Shown here one piece after another: positions 56,252-64,000 of a stretch of DNA of 64,000 nucleotides. The notes beneath the pieces were generated by a model that was not told the DNA's origin, ran no database searches, and was given only the letters and a program-made list of their open reading frames with translations. The stretch covers positions 1 through 64,000 of the forward strand of contig NZ_JAEQBB010000007.1 of the NCBI RefSeq assembly GCF_018616375.1. The letters run 5' to 3'. Source of the stretch: Exiguobacterium sp. J17977. Its GTDB lineage: Bacteria > Bacillota > Bacilli > Exiguobacteriales > Exiguobacteriaceae. The number at the start of each line of letters is the position of its first letter. Positions within the stretch are counted from its first letter, which is position 1. The translations under genes were made by a program, and so were the position numbers.

Positions 56252-56854
56252 ATGTTTCAATCACATGCAGTCTATGAAGGAGAAGATTTTCGGGATGAGA
56301 CGCTCCGTGACGTTCAACTCACGCAAACGACGTTCGAGAACTGTCGCTTCACCTATATCGATGCGACCGAGTTCGAGAGCGAGCAGTGCCGTTTCATCAA
56401 CTGTGACTTCACCGATTCAAAGTGGAACGCCTCACGCCATAGCGGTAGCTCGTTCTTGAACTGTCAGTTCAACGGGGCGAATCTGTTTTTGAGCGAGTTC
56501 GACCAGTGCAAGATGACGGGGTCGTCGTTTGAGTCAAGCACGTTTGAAGGGGTCATCGTGCGTGAGGGGGATTGGTCGTTCGTCAATCTGCGTCACGCCC
56601 CGCTCCGGAAGATGGATTGGTCCGGTGTCCGGTTGACCGAGGCCGATTTATACGGTGCGGATTTGAAAGAATCACGCTGGACGAACGCTGTCTTGTCCCG
56701 CGCCGTCTTGCAGCATGCCGACTGCACTGGTGCCGATTTTGTAGGGGCCGAGATGGATGGGGTCGATTTCTCGGACGTCATCCTGAAGCAAGCGACGATT
56801 GACGTGATGCAGGCCGTCCAAATCGCCCGCTCGCTCGGGGCGAACGTCATATGA
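56252..56854 (+). CDS. Pentapeptide-repeat protein, Qnr-like
   Basis: A 200-residue right-handed beta-helix protein made of A(D/N)LxX repeats, for example TTFENCRFTYIDATEF, FINCDFTDSKW, CQFNGANLFLSEFDQC and LTEADLYGADLKESRW. Length and the break near the middle resemble Qnr/Mfp proteins, which mimic DNA and shield gyrase from quinolones. That function is inferred from fold only. A strong AAGGAGGAA RBS precedes ATG 56252. It overlaps the aminoglycoside adenylyltransferase gene by four bases. Confidence 0.85.
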   Translation: MFQSHAVYEGEDFRDETLRDVQLTQTTFENCRFTYIDATEFESEQCRFINCDFTDSKWNASRHSGSSFLNCQFNGANLFLSEFDQCKMTGSSFESSTFEGVIVREGDWSFVNLRHAPLRKMDWSGVRLTEADLYGADLKESRWTNAVLSRAVLQHADCTGADFVGAEMDGVDFSDVILKQATIDVMQAVQIARSLGANVI

Positions 56855-57690
56855 CCAATGAGCAAGTGGTCGAACAATTGACGTCCGTGGCCAAGCAACG
56901 GGAAGACGTCCGTGTCCTTATCTTGAACGGGTCGCTCGTCAATCCGAACGTGTCGACGGACCGGTTTCAAGACGTCGATGTCACCTGCTTTGTCGAAGAT
57001 GTGGACACGTTCATCGAAGATCGCTCATGGATGATGCCGCTCGGGGAAGTGTTGATTATGCAGACGCCAGATGAGGTTCCGGGCAAGGGAAACTACGACC
57101 GATTTGCTTTCCTCGTCCAGTTCGCCGCCGGTCATCGCGTCGATTTGACTGTCCGCCCGCTGCGTGACGTGCAAGCGACGATTCAAGCGGATTCACTCAG
57201 TCTCGTCCTCATCGATAAAGACGGGATTGCCGGGCGACCGGTCCCGTCTGACGACACGTACCGCATCAAGCCTCCGAGTCGATTCGACTATGAGCAGTGT
57301 TGGAACGAGTTTTGGTGGGTGTCGCTTTACGTCGTCAAAGGCATCAAGCGGGGACAGTTGTTATATGCATACGACCATGTGACAATCATGCGGGCGATGC
57401 TCCGTCAGATGCTGTCGTGGGAAGTCGGATTCGAGACGGGTTTCACCGTGAACGCCGGGAAGGCCGGTGACGCTCTGGCCCCATATATGGATGCGGCAGA
57501 GTGGGACGACTATCTTCATACATTTCCGACAATCGAGACGACTTCTATTGAGGCAGCACATACAGCGTTGGTCGAACAGTTCGAACGCACGAGCAGGCGG
57601 GTCGCCGAACGAGCGGGATATTCGTTTCGTGCAGAGGAAGCACGCCGAATTCGTGACGCCTTTTCGACGCTTTGGGGTTCGAACGATTAA
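56851..57690 (+). CDS. aadK: Aminoglycoside 6-adenylyltransferase-like protein (AadK/ANT(6))
   Basis: A 279-residue nucleotidyltransferase of the ANT(6) streptomycin adenylyltransferase family. The catalytic region reads LILNGSLVNPNV then FQDVDVTCFVED (DxD metal ligands), with FAAGHRVDLTVRPL supplying the third Asp. QCWNEFWWVSLYVVKGIKRG is a family hallmark. ATG 56851 overlaps the pentapeptide-repeat stop codon. No mobile element flanks the pair, so this looks like an intrinsic chromosomal gene of the kind seen in Bacillus. Confidence 0.9.
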   Translation: MTNEQVVEQLTSVAKQREDVRVLILNGSLVNPNVSTDRFQDVDVTCFVEDVDTFIEDRSWMMPLGEVLIMQTPDEVPGKGNYDRFAFLVQFAAGHRVDLTVRPLRDVQATIQADSLSLVLIDKDGIAGRPVPSDDTYRIKPPSRFDYEQCWNEFWWVSLYVVKGIKRGQLLYAYDHVTIMRAMLRQMLSWEVGFETGFTVNAGKAGDALAPYMDAAEWDDYLHTFPTIETTSIEAAHTALVEQFERTSRRVAERAGYSFRAEEARRIRDAFSTLWGSND

Positions 57691-57738
57691 GTTTTGGTCG
57701 AGTCGGGAAAAGCCCCTCTATAGAAGGGGGAATGACGC

Positions 57739-57891
57739 TTGAATCCGTATACGACGTTCATCGCGCTCCTAGTAGGGAGTTTACTCTTATTTGTCGGCAT
57801 CCGGACGAAAAAATGGCCGATTGTTGTCGTGGCCTTATTTCCGCTTGGACTCGTGGCCTTCAACTTATTTTTACTCATTACTGGACGCTAG
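57739..57891 (+). CDS. 50-residue two-helix membrane protein
   Basis: A small ORF begins MNPYTTFIALLVGSLLLFVG, has a short basic turn (RTKKW), a second membrane helix and ends ITGR. TTG 57739 is eight bases from AAGGGGG. It is followed at once by a strong terminator, so it is the last cistron after aadK. No family is recognised. Confidence 0.6.
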   Translation: MNPYTTFIALLVGSLLLFVGIRTKKWPIVVVALFPLGLVAFNLFLLITGR

Positions 57892-57919
57892 AAGACTGTT
57901 TTCATCAGTCTTCTTTTTT
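57890..57919 (+). terminator. Terminator after the small membrane protein
   Basis: AGAAGACTG and CAGTCTTCT pair around a six-base loop and are followed by six T residues. Confidence 0.92.
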
Positions 57920-58111
57920 GTATAGTCGATTTTTTGCGAGCGAGATAAACGAGATACGTTTAGATTGTGCCGGGACCGGGCAATCTTCAATAAAATCGAT
58001 TTACATCCATTTTCTCCCTTCTAAAGAAACAATTAGTATGTTTACGCGTTGCTCACCGTCAAACGGACCAATTCACACCAAGATAGATTTGCTCACCAAG
58101 GAGGTGTCCGA
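57920..58111 (+). promoter_or_regulatory. Long leader region of the Pel locus
   Basis: This 190-base gap precedes the glycosidase gene. It contains a stem AGATTG/CAATCT with inner CCGG pairs (57962-57986), a weak promoter candidate TTTACA-N16-TAAAGA (58000-58027), and two direct copies of TTGCTCACC (58049-58057 and 58089-58097), 40 bases apart. No known riboswitch core was recognised. Confidence 0.35.
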
Positions 58112-58939
58112 GTGCGACGATTGTGGCTTACCGGCTTATTGCTCATCTTCTATTTGGGAGGATGTACGACGCGAGAGCCGTTTGATTTTGATGAGATTCA
58201 CTCTTATAAGATTTTCTACAACATGCCGACCGAGGCGATTATCGAGGATATGGCGCGCTACGACCTCGTCATCATCGAACCGATTTGGTATACACCGGAA
58301 CAGATCGAGACGATTCGGTCAAATGGGACGAAAGTGCTCGGGTATATCAACGTGATGGAGGCAGATTCGTGGAATCGAGCGCTGATCGGTCAAATGGACA
58401 AGGACGACTACTTTTATCGGGACGGGGAACGGATTTACTTTCCGAAGTGGGACTCGTATTTGACCGATATTAGTTCGGCCGACTTTCGCAAAATTTTAAT
58501 CCGTGAGATTCAAAAACAAGTCATCAACAAACATCTGGACGGTATTTTCCTTGATACGGTCGGGGACATCGATGACGTCCATTTGGACTATCCAGAAGAC
58601 TTAGCAGAACAGTTGGCAGGGCTCGAGAAATTCTTACAGGCGATTGAGCGTACGTATCCCGGCGTCCCGGTCGTTCAAAATTGGGGAATCGAGACGCTCG
58701 AACGGACGAGTGCCCCGTACGTGGAAGGCTTCATGTGGGAAGGCTTCAACTACACTGAAATCACATCTGATTCGTGGTCGATGGAGATGCTCGACCGGAT
58801 GAACGTGATTCAAGATGAGTATGGGATTGCCGTCCTCACCGTGTCTGATCAAGAAGAGGCGACGAGTCGTGATTTGGCCGAAGCGAACGGCTTTATCCAT
58901 TATCATGAACCAACGTATTACAATACGTGGGATTTTTAG
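58112..58939 (+). CDS. Lipoprotein glycoside hydrolase, PelA hydrolase-domain type
   Basis: A 275-residue predicted lipoprotein (lipobox LGGC) followed by a TIM-barrel domain of the endo-alpha-1,4-polygalactosaminidase (GH114-like) group, related to the hydrolase half of Pseudomonas PelA. Candidate catalytic and binding segments are GYINVMEAD (from Gly77), DGIFLDTVGDIDD (Asp148) and VVQNWG. GTG 58112 follows a perfect AAGGAGG. It lies 109 bases before pelD with no obvious terminator. It probably trims or releases Pel polymer at the outer membrane face. Confidence 0.85.
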   Translation: MRRLWLTGLLLIFYLGGCTTREPFDFDEIHSYKIFYNMPTEAIIEDMARYDLVIIEPIWYTPEQIETIRSNGTKVLGYINVMEADSWNRALIGQMDKDDYFYRDGERIYFPKWDSYLTDISSADFRKILIREIQKQVINKHLDGIFLDTVGDIDDVHLDYPEDLAEQLAGLEKFLQAIERTYPGVPVVQNWGIETLERTSAPYVEGFMWEGFNYTEITSDSWSMEMLDRMNVIQDEYGIAVLTVSDQEEATSRDLAEANGFIHYHEPTYYNTWDF

Positions 58940-59048
58940 GTGTTGATTAGGGTATGGGGAAATAGAAGATGTCGTGATCCGTTACTTAAGTTCGACTGGC
59001 TAGTTGCTAAACTGGTCCAGATGAACCAATCGCGAGGAGGGGATTATC

Positions 59049-60269
59049 ATTTTATACGCTCAAGACCGTCCATGGCTAAAATGGGTTGAGATTCTTGTCG
59101 TGTTCGCGCTATTGATCGGAGTCGATTTATTCTTTAATCTAGGCACGATTCAAAATGAGTTGAACTTGTTTTATGCGGCCGCCATCTTATTTGCTTTACG
59201 ATACGGCACCATCTTCGGCTTAATCAGCTTTGGCATTTTGCTCCTCTATAAAGTGTTATACACAGGTTTAATAGGAGGGGATATCTTCCTCTTGTTCTAC
59301 GATACAAACTCACTTCTTACACTGTTTTATTACTTCGCCATCACTGTCATCGTCGGGTTGTTCAGCACCTCATTTCGAGAGCGTTATGAAATCAGTCAGT
59401 TCCGAAATGAAGAACTGAAAGATGAGAACACGTATTTGAAAGAGACCGTCGATTTACTCAACACTTCGCAAACCACACTCCGTCAAAAACTACTTCAGTC
59501 CGAATACAGCTTGAACCAATTATATGAACTTGCCGTCTCGCTCGACTTGCCGCACCCGGAACTAATTCGGAGCGAAACGATTCGTCTGTTGAAAAAGACG
59601 TTCTTAGCGACCGATGTCGCGATTTATCACGTCGACCGCTCGCAAAAGTCGATGCGCCTCTTGATTCGCCAAACCGAAAAGAAAGAGTTCCCGCAAACAA
59701 TTTTCCTCGATGAGGCGTCGAGCATGTTCAAACGATTCTTCCAAGTCCAAGAGACGACACTCCGTCAACTCGATGACGAAGATTCGGATCCGATGTTGCT
59801 CGCACCAATCGTCGTGGACGGGCAGACGCGTGAAGTCGTCGTCATCAAGCGCTTGCCGCTCCGCAAATTGACGACCGATGACTTGCACGTCTTGAATATC
59901 TTGTTCTCTTGGATCGGGACACGCATTCAAAACGCCGAGAACCTGATTCGCAAAGAACAGCACGAGAAGATGCATAAAGGGACCTCGTTTTATAAGAAAG
60001 AGGCGTTCACGGAACTTGTCGCCATTCAAGAACAAAAGAAACTTCACCACGGGCAGCCGTATATCGTGCTCGATTATGCGCTCGGCTATGAACCGGTCTC
60101 ACTTGAGAGTATCGAAGCCATCGTCCACTCGTATTTACGGGAAATCGATGTCGTCGGCTACGATCCGGAAGAAAACAAGCTGTTGTTGTTGCTCCCTGGG
60201 ACGAGCGAAGAACACCGTCAACGGATTTATGATCGGATCGAAGGGATTTTGATCCAGAAGGGAGTGTGA
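59049..60269 (+). CDS. pelD: PelD-like c-di-GMP receptor, apparent ATT start
   Basis: A 406-residue inner-membrane protein. The N-terminus RPWLKWVEILVVFALLIGVD and three further helices (to about residue 110) are followed by a coiled coil, a GAF domain (about 180-300), and a C-terminal degenerate GGDEF domain. In that domain REID (Arg364 to Asp367) keeps the RxxD inhibitory-site motif, while the GGDEF residues are replaced by PEENK five residues later. It should bind c-di-GMP without making it and activate Pel polymerisation. GAGGAGGGGA (59034-59043) is spaced for ATT 59049. The first conventional codon, GTG 59100, has no RBS and would cut into the conserved N-terminus. Confidence 0.85.
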   Translation: MLYAQDRPWLKWVEILVVFALLIGVDLFFNLGTIQNELNLFYAAAILFALRYGTIFGLISFGILLLYKVLYTGLIGGDIFLLFYDTNSLLTLFYYFAITVIVGLFSTSFRERYEISQFRNEELKDENTYLKETVDLLNTSQTTLRQKLLQSEYSLNQLYELAVSLDLPHPELIRSETIRLLKKTFLATDVAIYHVDRSQKSMRLLIRQTEKKEFPQTIFLDEASSMFKRFFQVQETTLRQLDDEDSDPMLLAPIVVDGQTREVVVIKRLPLRKLTTDDLHVLNILFSWIGTRIQNAENLIRKEQHEKMHKGTSFYKKEAFTELVAIQEQKKLHHGQPYIVLDYALGYEPVSLESIEAIVHSYLREIDVVGYDPEENKLLLLLPGTSEEHRQRIYDRIEGILIQKGV

Positions 60270-60273
60270 CGGT

Positions 60274-61212
60274 ATGGAGCCGACCGTTCGTCTCGGATTG
60301 ATTGTGATGTATGTCGTTCACGCCGTGCTCGCCTTCGTCTTGTTAATCGCATTGAAACGAAAGATGAAAGCAGCGGACTATGGGGTCGCGGTGGCGGCCC
60401 TCAGTTTCGGTCTGTTCCTCCCGTTCGTGGCTGAACTTGCCGTCTATGCGGTGTATCGTTTGGCCGAACGTTTTGGTCGGAGCGGTTTGATTGAAGACTA
60501 TGACGACTATATCGACTTCAAAGTCGTCAACTATGAACAGATTCGACATGAAGCGAACAGTAGCACGAATTTGTTGCCGCTCACCGATGCCATCAATTCC
60601 AAAGATCCGGCCATCCGGAAACATTCGATTTTGACGCACGTCAATCAGTCAATTGACCAGCAAGGGAAGTATTTGCAGATGGGTCTCGAGAGTACGGACA
60701 GTGAGACCGTCCACTATGCGGCGGCGACGATGAACATCTTGATCGATCAGTATGAACAAGAACTGAAGCTGGCGAAACGCGAGTATGACTTAGGAAATCC
60801 TGAGACGATTCAACGACTCGCGACGATTTATAAACGGATGATTCATAGCGAACTCATCACCGAGGTCATGTTGAAAGACAAACAGACCGCGTGGCTCGAA
60901 GAATTGTTAAAAGTGAAGACGCTCTATCCGCCGGCCCCGTGGATTTACGAGGATTTGAACGAGATTTATGTCACGTTACAACGACCGAAAGAGCAATTGG
61001 ACATCCTGAAGGAGTATGTCCATCATTTCCCGGAACGAATCGAGGCCCATCTCATGCTCATCAACTTTTATTATGAGCGGGAGCGTTGGAACGAAGTGAA
61101 GGCGGTCATGTTTATGATGCAGACCCAGTTCTCGCTCGACGATGTGCCGTATGAGTACCGACTGTTGTTTGAAGAATGGAGTGACACGACATCATGGAAA
61201 AACGAACTGTAA
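60274..61212 (+). CDS. pelE: PelE-like membrane TPR protein
   Basis: A 312-residue protein with two N-terminal membrane helices (about 5-26 and 40-62) and a cytosolic helical-repeat region (about 80-312; for example ETIQRLATIYKRMIHSEL, WIYEDLNEIYVTLQRPKEQL). PelE proteins join PelD and PelG in the membrane complex and activate the PelF glycosyltransferase. It starts four bases after pelD and overlaps pelA by 19 bases. Identification depends on topology and position, since PelE is poorly conserved. Confidence 0.82.
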   Translation: MEPTVRLGLIVMYVVHAVLAFVLLIALKRKMKAADYGVAVAALSFGLFLPFVAELAVYAVYRLAERFGRSGLIEDYDDYIDFKVVNYEQIRHEANSSTNLLPLTDAINSKDPAIRKHSILTHVNQSIDQQGKYLQMGLESTDSETVHYAAATMNILIDQYEQELKLAKREYDLGNPETIQRLATIYKRMIHSELITEVMLKDKQTAWLEELLKVKTLYPPAPWIYEDLNEIYVTLQRPKEQLDILKEYVHHFPERIEAHLMLINFYYERERWNEVKAVMFMMQTQFSLDDVPYEYRLLFEEWSDTTSWKNEL

Positions 61213-63041
61213 TCTCATTCTCGCTCTTCATCGTCTTATTTCTAGTCATCGTCGGTGCGATTCAATACTTACGAATTCACTCGCTGCACACACTACTGCC
61301 GAACGTCGCCGAGCAACAGGTGAATATCGATCAATTGAAGAGTGAAGCGTCAGCGAAAGCAGGCGAGCACCAGCTTCAAATTTATCTCGTCCGGGATGAA
61401 GGTGATTTGGCGGTCGGGACGGCGGACAATCTGCTGCGAGGTTTGCAGTACGCGAAGCTCGAGGTCCGTGAAGTCAGCCCTGGCGCCGTCGGGTCGATTG
61501 CACCGTCCCCATACACGATTATCATCTTTACCGGAGAAGATTCATCGAGATGGCCGTTCGTCGCGATGAAGCGTTACGTCGAACAAGGCGGGAACCTTGT
61601 GTTCGCGAACCGGTTCAAAAATCCGGCGTGGAACGAGTTGACCGGGATTGAAGAAATCGGGGAATATGTGCCGGATGTATACGGCTTAAACTTTGAAGAG
61701 ACGATTTTTCCGGGTTATGTCGATTTGAACCCCCCGGAAGATCTGTTCGTCCATAGCGTCGTCGACTTCGCCATTGCGGATGATGCCAACGTCATGTTGT
61801 CAGCTGAAGGCTTCCCCATCCTTTGGGAATACCGTGTTGGTGAAGGGAACGTCCTGTATTGGAATACGACAATCACGAACCAAAAGATGATTCGCGGCTT
61901 GTTCGTGCAGACACTCGGCACGATGCCCCCGGCGTTCGTCACGGCACAAGCGGCCATCAAACTCATGTATATCGATGATTTCCCGGCGCCGGTCATGGAC
62001 GGGAAGATGAAAGATGTCTCCGCCACACCACTCGATAAATCGGTCAAAGACTTCTTCGCCGAGAATTGGTGGGAAGACATGGTCGATTTAGCGAAAGACG
62101 ACGATGTGATTTATACAGGTGCGATGATTGGAACGTATGAGGAAGAAATGGAACTGGTTGATGAACAGTTGATTAAGCGCGGTGAGTTTCCGATGCTGTA
62201 TTTTGGACGTAAACTGATTGCCCACGGCGGAGAAATCGGGTTACATGGTTATAATCACCAATCGCTCGTCACGGCCGATGAACCGATTGATCCGACGTAT
62301 GGCTATATCCCGTGGAAAGATAAAGAAGAGATGAAGCGGTCGTTGTTACAGGCTGAATCCGTGTTCGCGAACTATTTCCCGGCCGAGACGCTTAAGTCAT
62401 ACGTCCCGCCATCGAATGCGCTCAATCGGACTGGTGTCGATGCAATCGCAGAGGCGTTACCTAACCTTCGCACGATTGCCTCCCTTTACACCGGGGAACC
62501 CGAGAATGGGGACTTCGTGCAAGAGTTCGAGTTTGATGCAACGCATCCAAACCTTTATCATTTCCCGCGCGTGTCGAGTGATTACGGGGAAGAGCGAGGT
62601 TCGATTTTCCAAATGGTCGACGCCATCGCCAACTTCGGTTTATTCTCACACTTTATTCACCCGGATGATGTCATCGACCCCGATCGGGCTTTCGGACGAG
62701 ATTGGGACACGATGTTTGCGAGCCTGCGCAAAATCGTCCATGACGTGAAAGATCAATATCCGCATCTCGAGGCGTATACGCAACATTATGCAACCGAGAA
62801 GATGATCACCTACCAACAAGCTGATTTGAACGTCACGTTCGATGAGTCGACGGTCTATTTGGCCGGGGAAGGGCTAATCAACCCGTCTCATTTCACGATT
62901 CGCCTGAAACCGGGCCAGTCGCTCGAGACAGGAAAATTTGACTTCGGGACGGTCGAGCAATGGGAAGCCGACCGCCCACTCTATCTCGTCAAATTGACGT
63001 CGGCGAATGCTGAAATCGCCATCAAGGGGGAAGCGCAATGA
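61194..63041 (+). CDS. pelA: Membrane-anchored Pel deacetylase (PelA deacetylase half, DUF2194)
   Basis: A 615-residue protein with an N-terminal anchor (about 8-25), a flavodoxin/glutaminase-like domain (about 60-250) and a polysaccharide-deacetylase domain. The metal/catalytic motifs are YIDDFPAP (Asp261-Asp262), GLHGYNHQS (His351, His355) and YVPPSN. A C-terminal beta domain follows. It should remove acetyl groups from the GalNAc-rich Pel polymer. It lacks the hydrolase domain of Gram-negative PelA, which is encoded separately at 58112. It is coupled to pelE and pelF by overlaps. Confidence 0.88.
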   Translation: MEKRTVISFSLFIVLFLVIVGAIQYLRIHSLHTLLPNVAEQQVNIDQLKSEASAKAGEHQLQIYLVRDEGDLAVGTADNLLRGLQYAKLEVREVSPGAVGSIAPSPYTIIIFTGEDSSRWPFVAMKRYVEQGGNLVFANRFKNPAWNELTGIEEIGEYVPDVYGLNFEETIFPGYVDLNPPEDLFVHSVVDFAIADDANVMLSAEGFPILWEYRVGEGNVLYWNTTITNQKMIRGLFVQTLGTMPPAFVTAQAAIKLMYIDDFPAPVMDGKMKDVSATPLDKSVKDFFAENWWEDMVDLAKDDDVIYTGAMIGTYEEEMELVDEQLIKRGEFPMLYFGRKLIAHGGEIGLHGYNHQSLVTADEPIDPTYGYIPWKDKEEMKRSLLQAESVFANYFPAETLKSYVPPSNALNRTGVDAIAEALPNLRTIASLYTGEPENGDFVQEFEFDATHPNLYHFPRVSSDYGEERGSIFQMVDAIANFGLFSHFIHPDDVIDPDRAFGRDWDTMFASLRKIVHDVKDQYPHLEAYTQHYATEKMITYQQADLNVTFDESTVYLAGEGLINPSHFTIRLKPGQSLETGKFDFGTVEQWEADRPLYLVKLTSANAEIAIKGEAQ

Positions 63042-64000
63042 AAATCGGACTTGTCTTAGAGGGCAGTTATCCGTACGTGAGCGGAGGCGTCTCAAGCTGG
63101 ACGCAGACGTTGATCGAGGAGATGCCCGAGGTGTCGTTTGAAATCATTTCAATTCAACCGACCGAGAAACGACCGGAAGATATGAAATACGAGTTTCCCC
63201 CGAACGTCTCCGGCATCACCCATCTGTATTTAAACGACGTGGGCGAGCGAGCGAAGGGACGATTGAAGTGGGACGCCGACGACGAACAGAACGTGTCGGA
63301 CTGGCTCATGTTAAGAAGTCCGAACCGGCAGGCGCTGCGCTTACTCGGGAAAGAAGTGCCTTCGAGCGAGACGTTTTTCGCGAGCGAGTTCTTTTGGCGC
63401 AACGTCAAGGCCGCCTATGCCGAAGAGATGAACGGCGGTTCGTTCATTGACTATTTCTGGATGTGGCAAAGCATGTATACGCCGATTTTACGGGTGCTCC
63501 ATCAGCCGCTCCCGAAAGTCGACCTCGTCCATTCGGTATCGACAGGTTATGCCGGTGTGGTCGCTTCCTACATGAAAGAGACACAAGGAATTCCGTTCAT
63601 TTTGACCGAGCATGGCATCTATTCCCGTGAACGCGAAGAAGAGATTTTACAGTCATATTGGATTCCGGCGCCGTATAAGCCGAGATGGGTGCGTTTCTTC
63701 CATCACTTATCCCGCGAAGCGTATAACGCGGCCGATGAGATTATCACCTTGTTCGAGCGGAACCGTGAATATCAGGAATGGATCGGCGCACCGAGTGAGA
63801 AGACGAAGATTATCGCCAACGGGATTGCCGACCGGCAAATCCAGGCGACGGTCGATCGGACGGAGCACGACCTCTTTCAAATCGGTGCCATCGTCCGCCT
63901 AGTCCCGATTAAAGACTTGAAGACGATGATATACGCCGCCAAGATTTTGCAGGAGCGGCATCGTCTGTTCAAACTGACAATCATGGGTCCGCTCGATGAG
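63038..64000 (+). CDS. pelF: PelF-like GT4 glycosyltransferase (3' end outside window)
   Basis: The first 321 residues of a cytosolic glycosyltransferase. It begins MKIGLVLEGSYPYVSGGVSS, the PelF/DUF3492 signature, followed by LVHSVSTGYAGVVASYMK and ILTEHGIYSREREEEIL, then the start of the GT4 domain (KIIANGIADRQI, IGAIVRLVPIKDLKTMI). PelF uses UDP-GalNAc/GlcNAc to extend the Pel chain. ATG 63038 overlaps the pelA stop (ATGA). PelG, the membrane transporter, is expected just beyond the window. Confidence 0.93.
   Translation, partial: MKIGLVLEGSYPYVSGGVSSWTQTLIEEMPEVSFEIISIQPTEKRPEDMKYEFPPNVSGITHLYLNDVGERAKGRLKWDADDEQNVSDWLMLRSPNRQALRLLGKEVPSSETFFASEFFWRNVKAAYAEEMNGGSFIDYFWMWQSMYTPILRVLHQPLPKVDLVHSVSTGYAGVVASYMKETQGIPFILTEHGIYSREREEEILQSYWIPAPYKPRWVRFFHHLSREAYNAADEIITLFERNREYQEWIGAPSEKTKIIANGIADRQIQATVDRTEHDLFQIGAIVRLVPIKDLKTMIYAAKILQERHRLFKLTIMGPLDE

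Follow-up and report, generated by a model that had tools for sequence, protein, structure and literature searches.

Pel exopolysaccharide loci have been described in several groups of bacteria. In Pseudomonas aeruginosa, the pelABCDEFG genes encode a single fused periplasmic PelA with both hydrolase and deacetylase activities, PelB, PelC, a PelDEFG complex and a PelD of the cyclic diguanylate (c-di-GMP) type (PMC7112168, PMC12345266). In Gram-positive bacteria, the PelA orthologs contain the deacetylase domain only, and pelAH-like hydrolase genes, commonly divergent in bacilli, are located within or beside many pel operons (PMC7112168, 2020). The locus treated here lies at the end of a window of 64,000 nucleotides (the whole stretch of DNA that was analysed, bases 1-64000 of the 177 kb contig NZ_JAEQBB010000007.1) from the 2.94 Mb genome of Exiguobacterium sp. 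J17977, where pelAH, pelD, pelE, pelADA and the start of pelF follow one another in that order on the + strand from 58112 to 64000. Judged from its sequence, it is very probably a complete Gram-positive Pel exopolysaccharide cassette, pelAH-pelD-pelE-pelADA-pelF-pelG. Such a locus is mostly of a known kind; what appears to be new is the lineage-specific, co-oriented hydrolase gene with a lipobox, together with a second hydrolase encoded elsewhere in the genome.

Among the described systems, the pelDEADAFG operon of Bacillus cereus ATCC 10987 shares with the Exiguobacterium locus the core genes and their order, the separate hydrolase gene, the hydrolase-free PelADA, and a PelD with an RxxD I-site and a degenerate GGDEF domain (PMC7112168). 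It differs in having a divergent pelAH and a flanking galE, whereas in Exiguobacterium pelAH is co-oriented and has a lipobox motif, galE lies away from the locus, and there is another hydrolase encoded elsewhere; the two PelAH proteins are compared here by description, not by alignment. Unlike P. aeruginosa, Exiguobacterium distributes the two PelA activities over two proteins, and there is no PelB or PelC among its six genes. The preliminary description of this DNA had also read the PelA activities as divided between two genes. The split is confirmed, but as a novelty the claim does not stand, since PMC7112168 describes both deacetylase-only PelA proteins and separate pelAH-like genes, that is to say, the split is already known as a Gram-positive rule. 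Clusters of Streptococcus and Clostridia with CotH and DUF4832 genes have the core pelDEADAFG as well, and for Streptococcus intermedius a surface-associated hydrolase, SIR_1591, has been reported (PMC7112168, PMC12345266). However, SIR_1591 is of the DUF4832 and TIM-barrel kind, with a predicted transmembrane helix, and those clusters have an epimerase-fused PelD and CotH neighbours.

The reason for a hydrolase beside the Pel synthase is not fully settled. In B. cereus, deletion of pelAH raises biofilm (PMC7112168). Secreted Pel in P. aeruginosa arises from the hydrolase activity, whose loss removes this form and raises biofilm mass (PMC9894940). In S. intermedius, deletion of the hydrolase gene gave no phenotype (PMC12345266), a caution against assuming one fixed role. 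As for Exiguobacterium, no paper describing its pel locus was among the matches listed: in the available text, PMC6158405 has pel in a reference title only and PMC13233415 contains no pel gene.

Gene order and core proteins of the cassette

The pelAH-like gene (58112..58939, + strand) encodes a glycoside hydrolase of 275 residues and starts with GTG behind AAGGAGGTG. It is followed on the same strand by pelD (59049..60269); by pelE (60274..61212), which is named by position and profile homology; by pelADA (61194..63041), whose product has an N-terminal hydrophobic segment and a DUF2194 polysaccharide deacetylase domain; and by the glycosyltransferase gene pelF (63038..64000), which is cut by the window end and stops at contig position 64456. 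The five genes, their common orientation and their families are thus as the preliminary description had named them, and pelG, which it had placed beyond position 64000, was found there (contig 64416-65885, + strand) with 452.5 bits to the Pfam family PF16933. Its statement that the starts overlap or nearly adjoin holds from pelD onward, with a D-E gap of 4 bases and overlaps of 19 (E-ADA), 4 (ADA-F) and 41 bases (F-G), but fails for the first pair, where the AH-D gap is 109 bases. The order pelD-pelE-pelADA-pelF-pelG on one strand is that of the Gram-positive pelDEADAFG operon. This gene set is not a product of chance, because the same order recurs in 10 Exiguobacterium genomes and the whole block is missing at the same site in 9 others. 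By PelADA, the closest named relatives among the six Exiguobacterium contigs found are E. chiriqhucha RW-2 (97%) and sp. s146 (96%).

The Exiguobacterium loci with pelAH upstream of pelD in the same orientation are called type A below. Type B refers to eight Exiguobacteriaceae loci (L068-L070, L072-L076) with homologous D-E-ADA-F-G genes, which differ in having a divergent pelAH without lipobox and, in 7 of 8, an epimerase-like gene beside pelG; together with L102 they make up nine loci of type B layout.

PelADA reaches 303.5 bits with DUF2194, and its residues 44-613 align with 9zau, the structure of B. cereus PelADA, at E 1.9e-151. The motifs YIDDF, HGYNH, VPPSN, FPR and HPDD are kept, as mapped by motif to the residues whose roles are given in PMC13254593. 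The protein is, as expected of a Gram-positive PelA, a deacetylase domain only with its catalytic motifs. Strict patterns for all five motifs were found in 10/10 type A proteins and are less complete in the nine of type B layout. Type A and L102 have the first pattern (YIDDF), but no match to it was found in the eight type B proteins, nor to a looser Y[IVL]DD in the two type B PelADA proteins checked. PelF matches the NCBIfam PelF equivalog NF038011 with 226.8 bits (cut-off 100) on its in-window part. For the precursor, uridine diphosphate N-acetylgalactosamine (UDP-GalNAc), two galE matches over the cut-off, neither adjacent to the pel locus, lie elsewhere in the genome and, by their sequence, could supply it.

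These data bear on the idea that the product is not Pel but a relative of it, for example a fully acetylated polymer or one with another sugar. Polymer chemistry is unreadable from sequence, and an adjacent galE is lacking here, whereas 7 of 8 type B loci have the epimerase-like gene beside pelG, an assignment that comes from the drift of a profile and not from a search for the family. With all core proteins present, the PelADA catalytic motifs kept and galE matches available elsewhere, a different polymer is nevertheless very unlikely.

PelD is composed of a hydrophobic N-terminal part, a GAF domain (Pfam, 40 bits) and a degenerate GGDEF domain, in which the I-site REID is followed by five residues and then by PEENK at the GGDEF position. 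All 10 PelD proteins of type A have REID, and each of the nine loci of type B layout has either REID or REVD; the C-terminal part matches a GGDEF-type structure in the PDB at E 8.9e-6. In B. cereus PelD the RxxD I-site is likewise intact, and sequence methods cannot connect that protein to P. aeruginosa PelD (PMC7112168). From the sequence alignment, pelD appears to start at ATT 59049, behind a strong AGGAGGGG site, rather than at GTG 59100, as the stretch from the ATT to the later GTG is conserved. The start codon is ATT in 9/10 type A loci and ATG in one (G015/L063); in the start column of alignment A4, three type B proteins have Met, and L102 begins there. As a start codon, AUU is rare (infC is a known example), and on pelD it may hold Pel synthesis low.

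The upstream hydrolase and its distribution in Bacilli

In Pfam, PelAH matches GH114 with 36.7 bits (cut-off 27) and GHL15 with 33.7 bits, also over its cut-off. A single-sequence search of the PDB placed PelA structures first (5tcb, E 1.9e-6), and a 13-sequence PelAH profile gave 5tcb, 5tsy and 9cgy at E 1.6e-13 to 1.2e-12, before the GH114-type entries; the row between the two groups is a barrel designed by artificial intelligence, none of whose stretches alone reaches the threshold. The preliminary description had proposed a comparison of the products at 58112 and 61194 with PelA structures, and both searches bear its reading out: the best matches are PelA hydrolases and B. cereus PelADA, respectively, and not structures of unrelated hydrolase and deacetylase families, which would have refuted it. 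The prediction that the hydrolase is a lipoprotein also agrees with the comparison: a GTG start and the lipobox LGGC (Cys18 in this protein) are conserved in 10/10 type A PelAH proteins, and the lipobox occurs in 0/13 other AH hits, as judged by pattern and by eye, not by a signal-peptide predictor. The motifs FLDT and WE are present in 10/10 type A proteins as well. A PelA-hydrolase-like domain thus stands behind an export signal, as in B. cereus, and we infer that Glu210 is equivalent to B. cereus E213. Given its lipobox, the protein probably carries a lipid anchor that holds it at the outside of the membrane. In the hydrolase tree, type A PelAH, type B PelAH and the second hydrolase form three separate groups.

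The survey sample consisted of 53 loci (L003, the locus of this genome, and L059-L110) from 19 genomes of the genus and 398 Bacilli genomes, the two sets overlapping. Its reach for pelAH was about 6 kb upstream and 5 kb downstream, and copies that are too diverged would escape the profile. Three loci are incomplete: L071 is a pelADA fragment only, L101 has only pelADA and pelF, and the contig of L090 ends just upstream of pelD, so that an upstream pelAH is possible there. The profiles for D, E and G strayed to epimerases, GGDEF proteins, CotH kinases and further proteins; therefore, only entries at the pel position were counted. By this profile survey, a PelAH-like gene is present in 23/53 loci and was not found in 30/53. 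It is co-oriented upstream of pelD in 10/53, all of them in Exiguobacterium (10/19 genus genomes) and all with the same six-gene order; elsewhere it is divergent upstream (9/53) or downstream on the opposite strand (4/53). The divergent arrangement, which is common but not defining in Gram-positive loci, is absent from all 10 type A loci. In a phylum sample of 398 genomes, 12 exceeded the DUF2194 cut-off, of which G000 and G062 had already been counted and G654 (a 227-residue frame) was left out; the 9 further loci, one of which (L217) covers only about 2 kb upstream of pelD, gave 2 weak AH-like matches, both downstream of pelG. In the family of G029, the sole genome with type B layout outside Exiguobacteriaceae, no further locus exceeded the cut-off (1/11, G029 itself).

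Type A and type B each form a single group in the trees of PelADA and of PelG, and the two groups are sisters, with support of 95/93 for PelADA and a weaker 89/90 for PelG. The co-oriented, upstream hydrolase with its predicted lipobox sets the type A clade apart from these nearest relatives, in which the gene is divergent and without lipobox. A separate, predicted lipoprotein hydrolase directly upstream, as a distinct layout, is thus upheld for 10 of the 53 loci, and the supplementary figures of PMC7112168 may show such a co-oriented pelAH. One genome (G015) holds both type A and type B, and another (G008) holds type A and a long-PelD type, of which the relative L108 shows an epimerase domain.

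Several results weigh against the reading of the six genes as one Pel cassette. Promoter-like sites (11 found against 7.6 expected, standard deviation 2.6) and terminator-like sites (10 against 10.4) are near or at chance level, so the single transcript that we infer from pelAH onward lacks support from the site scan, and the AH-D gap could hold a second promoter. PelAH matches both GH114 and GHL15 above their cut-offs and its PDB match is distant, which leaves its substrate specificity unproven. PelE has no match in Pfam or NCBIfam; its profile homologs sit between pelD and pelADA in most loci, as found with a profile that drifted. The PDB searches with PelD gave no PelD entry, also not among the 5 rows of the profile search, the sole plausible match being the GGDEF-type one to the C-terminal part, in agreement with the remark on sequence methods in PMC7112168. 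The AlphaFold2 models, made from seven-row alignments, are poor (mean predicted local distance difference test score 43.7 for PelAH and 47.4 for PelD); therefore, the PDB was compared by sequence profiles in place of a fold search.

Part of this evidence would suit an upstream hydrolase that is merely an adjacent, independently transcribed gene for another glycan, with the Pel operon comprising pelDEADAFG only: the gap before pelD is 109 bases, against 4 bases or overlaps elsewhere, and the Pfam match is double. Three observations make this explanation unlikely. Among structures, PelA hydrolases rank first by sequence, ahead of other GH114-type enzymes; pelAH is in 10/10 type A loci and is gone with the block in the 9 other genomes of the genus, save type B copies; and relatives of PelAH flank 13/43 other pel loci. 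At the corresponding site in those 9 genomes, only about 0.5 to 0.94 kb separates the gene at 56851 from tenA, and no pel gene lies in between; in five of the genomes, a translated search of this gap for pel remnants gave chance-level matches only.

A second hydrolase and a possible division of labour

A second GH114-type hydrolase of 486 residues is encoded elsewhere in this genome, at C1:74130-75590 (L004 9631-11091). It has an apparent signal peptide, a Thr-Lys-Pro-Ala-rich linker encoded by a 24-base tandem repeat (12.4 copies), and a Lys/His-rich tail. The PelAH search found its relative, 46-48% identical, in 10/10 type A genomes and 0/9 without type A; seven of the latter gave no match, and G012 and G016 were matched only by type B pelAH. 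The linker and tail were read in 8/10, and the hydrolase domain only in the other two. The chance of such co-occurrence would be 1/C(19,10) = 1.1e-5 for independent genomes, but the 19 genomes share ancestry and are not independent, because the 10 carriers lie within one 12-member clade in the rpoB and seven-gene trees.

It could therefore be argued that the second hydrolase is unrelated to Pel and accompanies it by shared ancestry only. Against this, the two cassette-less members of the clade, G009 and G018, are without the second hydrolase too, exactly at its site in relatives: in four type A genomes examined (G000, G004, G005, G017) the gene stands directly before upp, and in G009, G018, G012 and G016 upp adjoins the gene that otherwise precedes the hydrolase gene, and the hydrolase gene is missing. 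Since the neighbours of both sites remain in G009 and G018, and since 184-212 kb lie between the hydrolase genes in the seven genomes that have both on one contig, the joint absence in G009 and G018 is hard to explain by one deletion. The seven-gene tree forces three changes, of which the simplest reading, from sequence, would be one gain and two losses; the well-supported rpoB branches require no more than two, and one loss therefore depends on the seven-gene tree, whose genes flank the cassette. Shared ancestry alone is rather unlikely on this evidence.

We lean slightly towards two dedicated Pel hydrolases whose genes are inherited and lost jointly despite a distance of about 200 kb, namely a lipid-tethered trimmer at the exit site and a secreted enzyme of the wall or matrix, with the AUU codon on pelD perhaps restraining synthesis. 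By homology, PelF would polymerise UDP-GalNAc, PelG with PelD and PelE would move the chain through the membrane, c-di-GMP at the I-site of PelD would switch synthesis on, and the membrane-anchored PelADA would deacetylate the emerging chain. The layout suggests that PelAH would be made along with the synthesis machine and kept close to the exit site. With pelAH in line before pelD and its protein probably anchored on the same membrane, trimming would be coupled to synthesis both in expression and in place. The second hydrolase, with its ordinary signal peptide, Thr-Lys-Pro linker and basic tail, would act on polymer farther out, probably in the wall or matrix. Apparently, the hydrolase function is shared in this clade by two enzymes, one anchored and one free, so that exit-site trimming and matrix-level cutting could be separable in one Gram-positive host.

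Signals and genes around the locus

A terminator-like stem with a T-rich tail lies at 57890..57924 on the + strand (stem at L003 891-915, AGAAGACTG...CAGTCTTCT) and may close the unit that precedes pel. A short frame at 57739-57891, immediately ahead of the pel genes, begins with TTG as judged by eye and would encode a small hydrophobic protein; its DNA is conserved also in genomes without pel. The surroundings of pelAH (57600-59150) were searched for known RNA elements, c-di-GMP riboswitches among them, without a match; in the 20 kb of L003, the only Rfam match at gathering level is a thiamine pyrophosphate riboswitch before tenA. A PAS-GGDEF protein encoded about 4 kb past pelG (L003 12802-14397) is a possible source of c-di-GMP, and its gene is at the same site in 8/9 genus genomes without type A, the stretch of the ninth ending too early.

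Some further loci depart from the usual gene content. The type B pelAH of G012 (L068 5929-6723) is truncated relative to its relatives, with one in-frame TAA counted in the genome search. A type A genome contains an isolated second PelADA-like fragment (L071, G006:C3:96167-96718) with no pelF or pelG nearby, and L077 (G141:C1:554588-558066) has a tandem pair of DUF2194 genes in one pel locus. In other Bacilli, long PelG genes were seen, by length only, in L090, L093 and L096-L098, and that of L092 (12265-15381) is, according to Pfam, a fusion of PelG with a CotH kinase domain.

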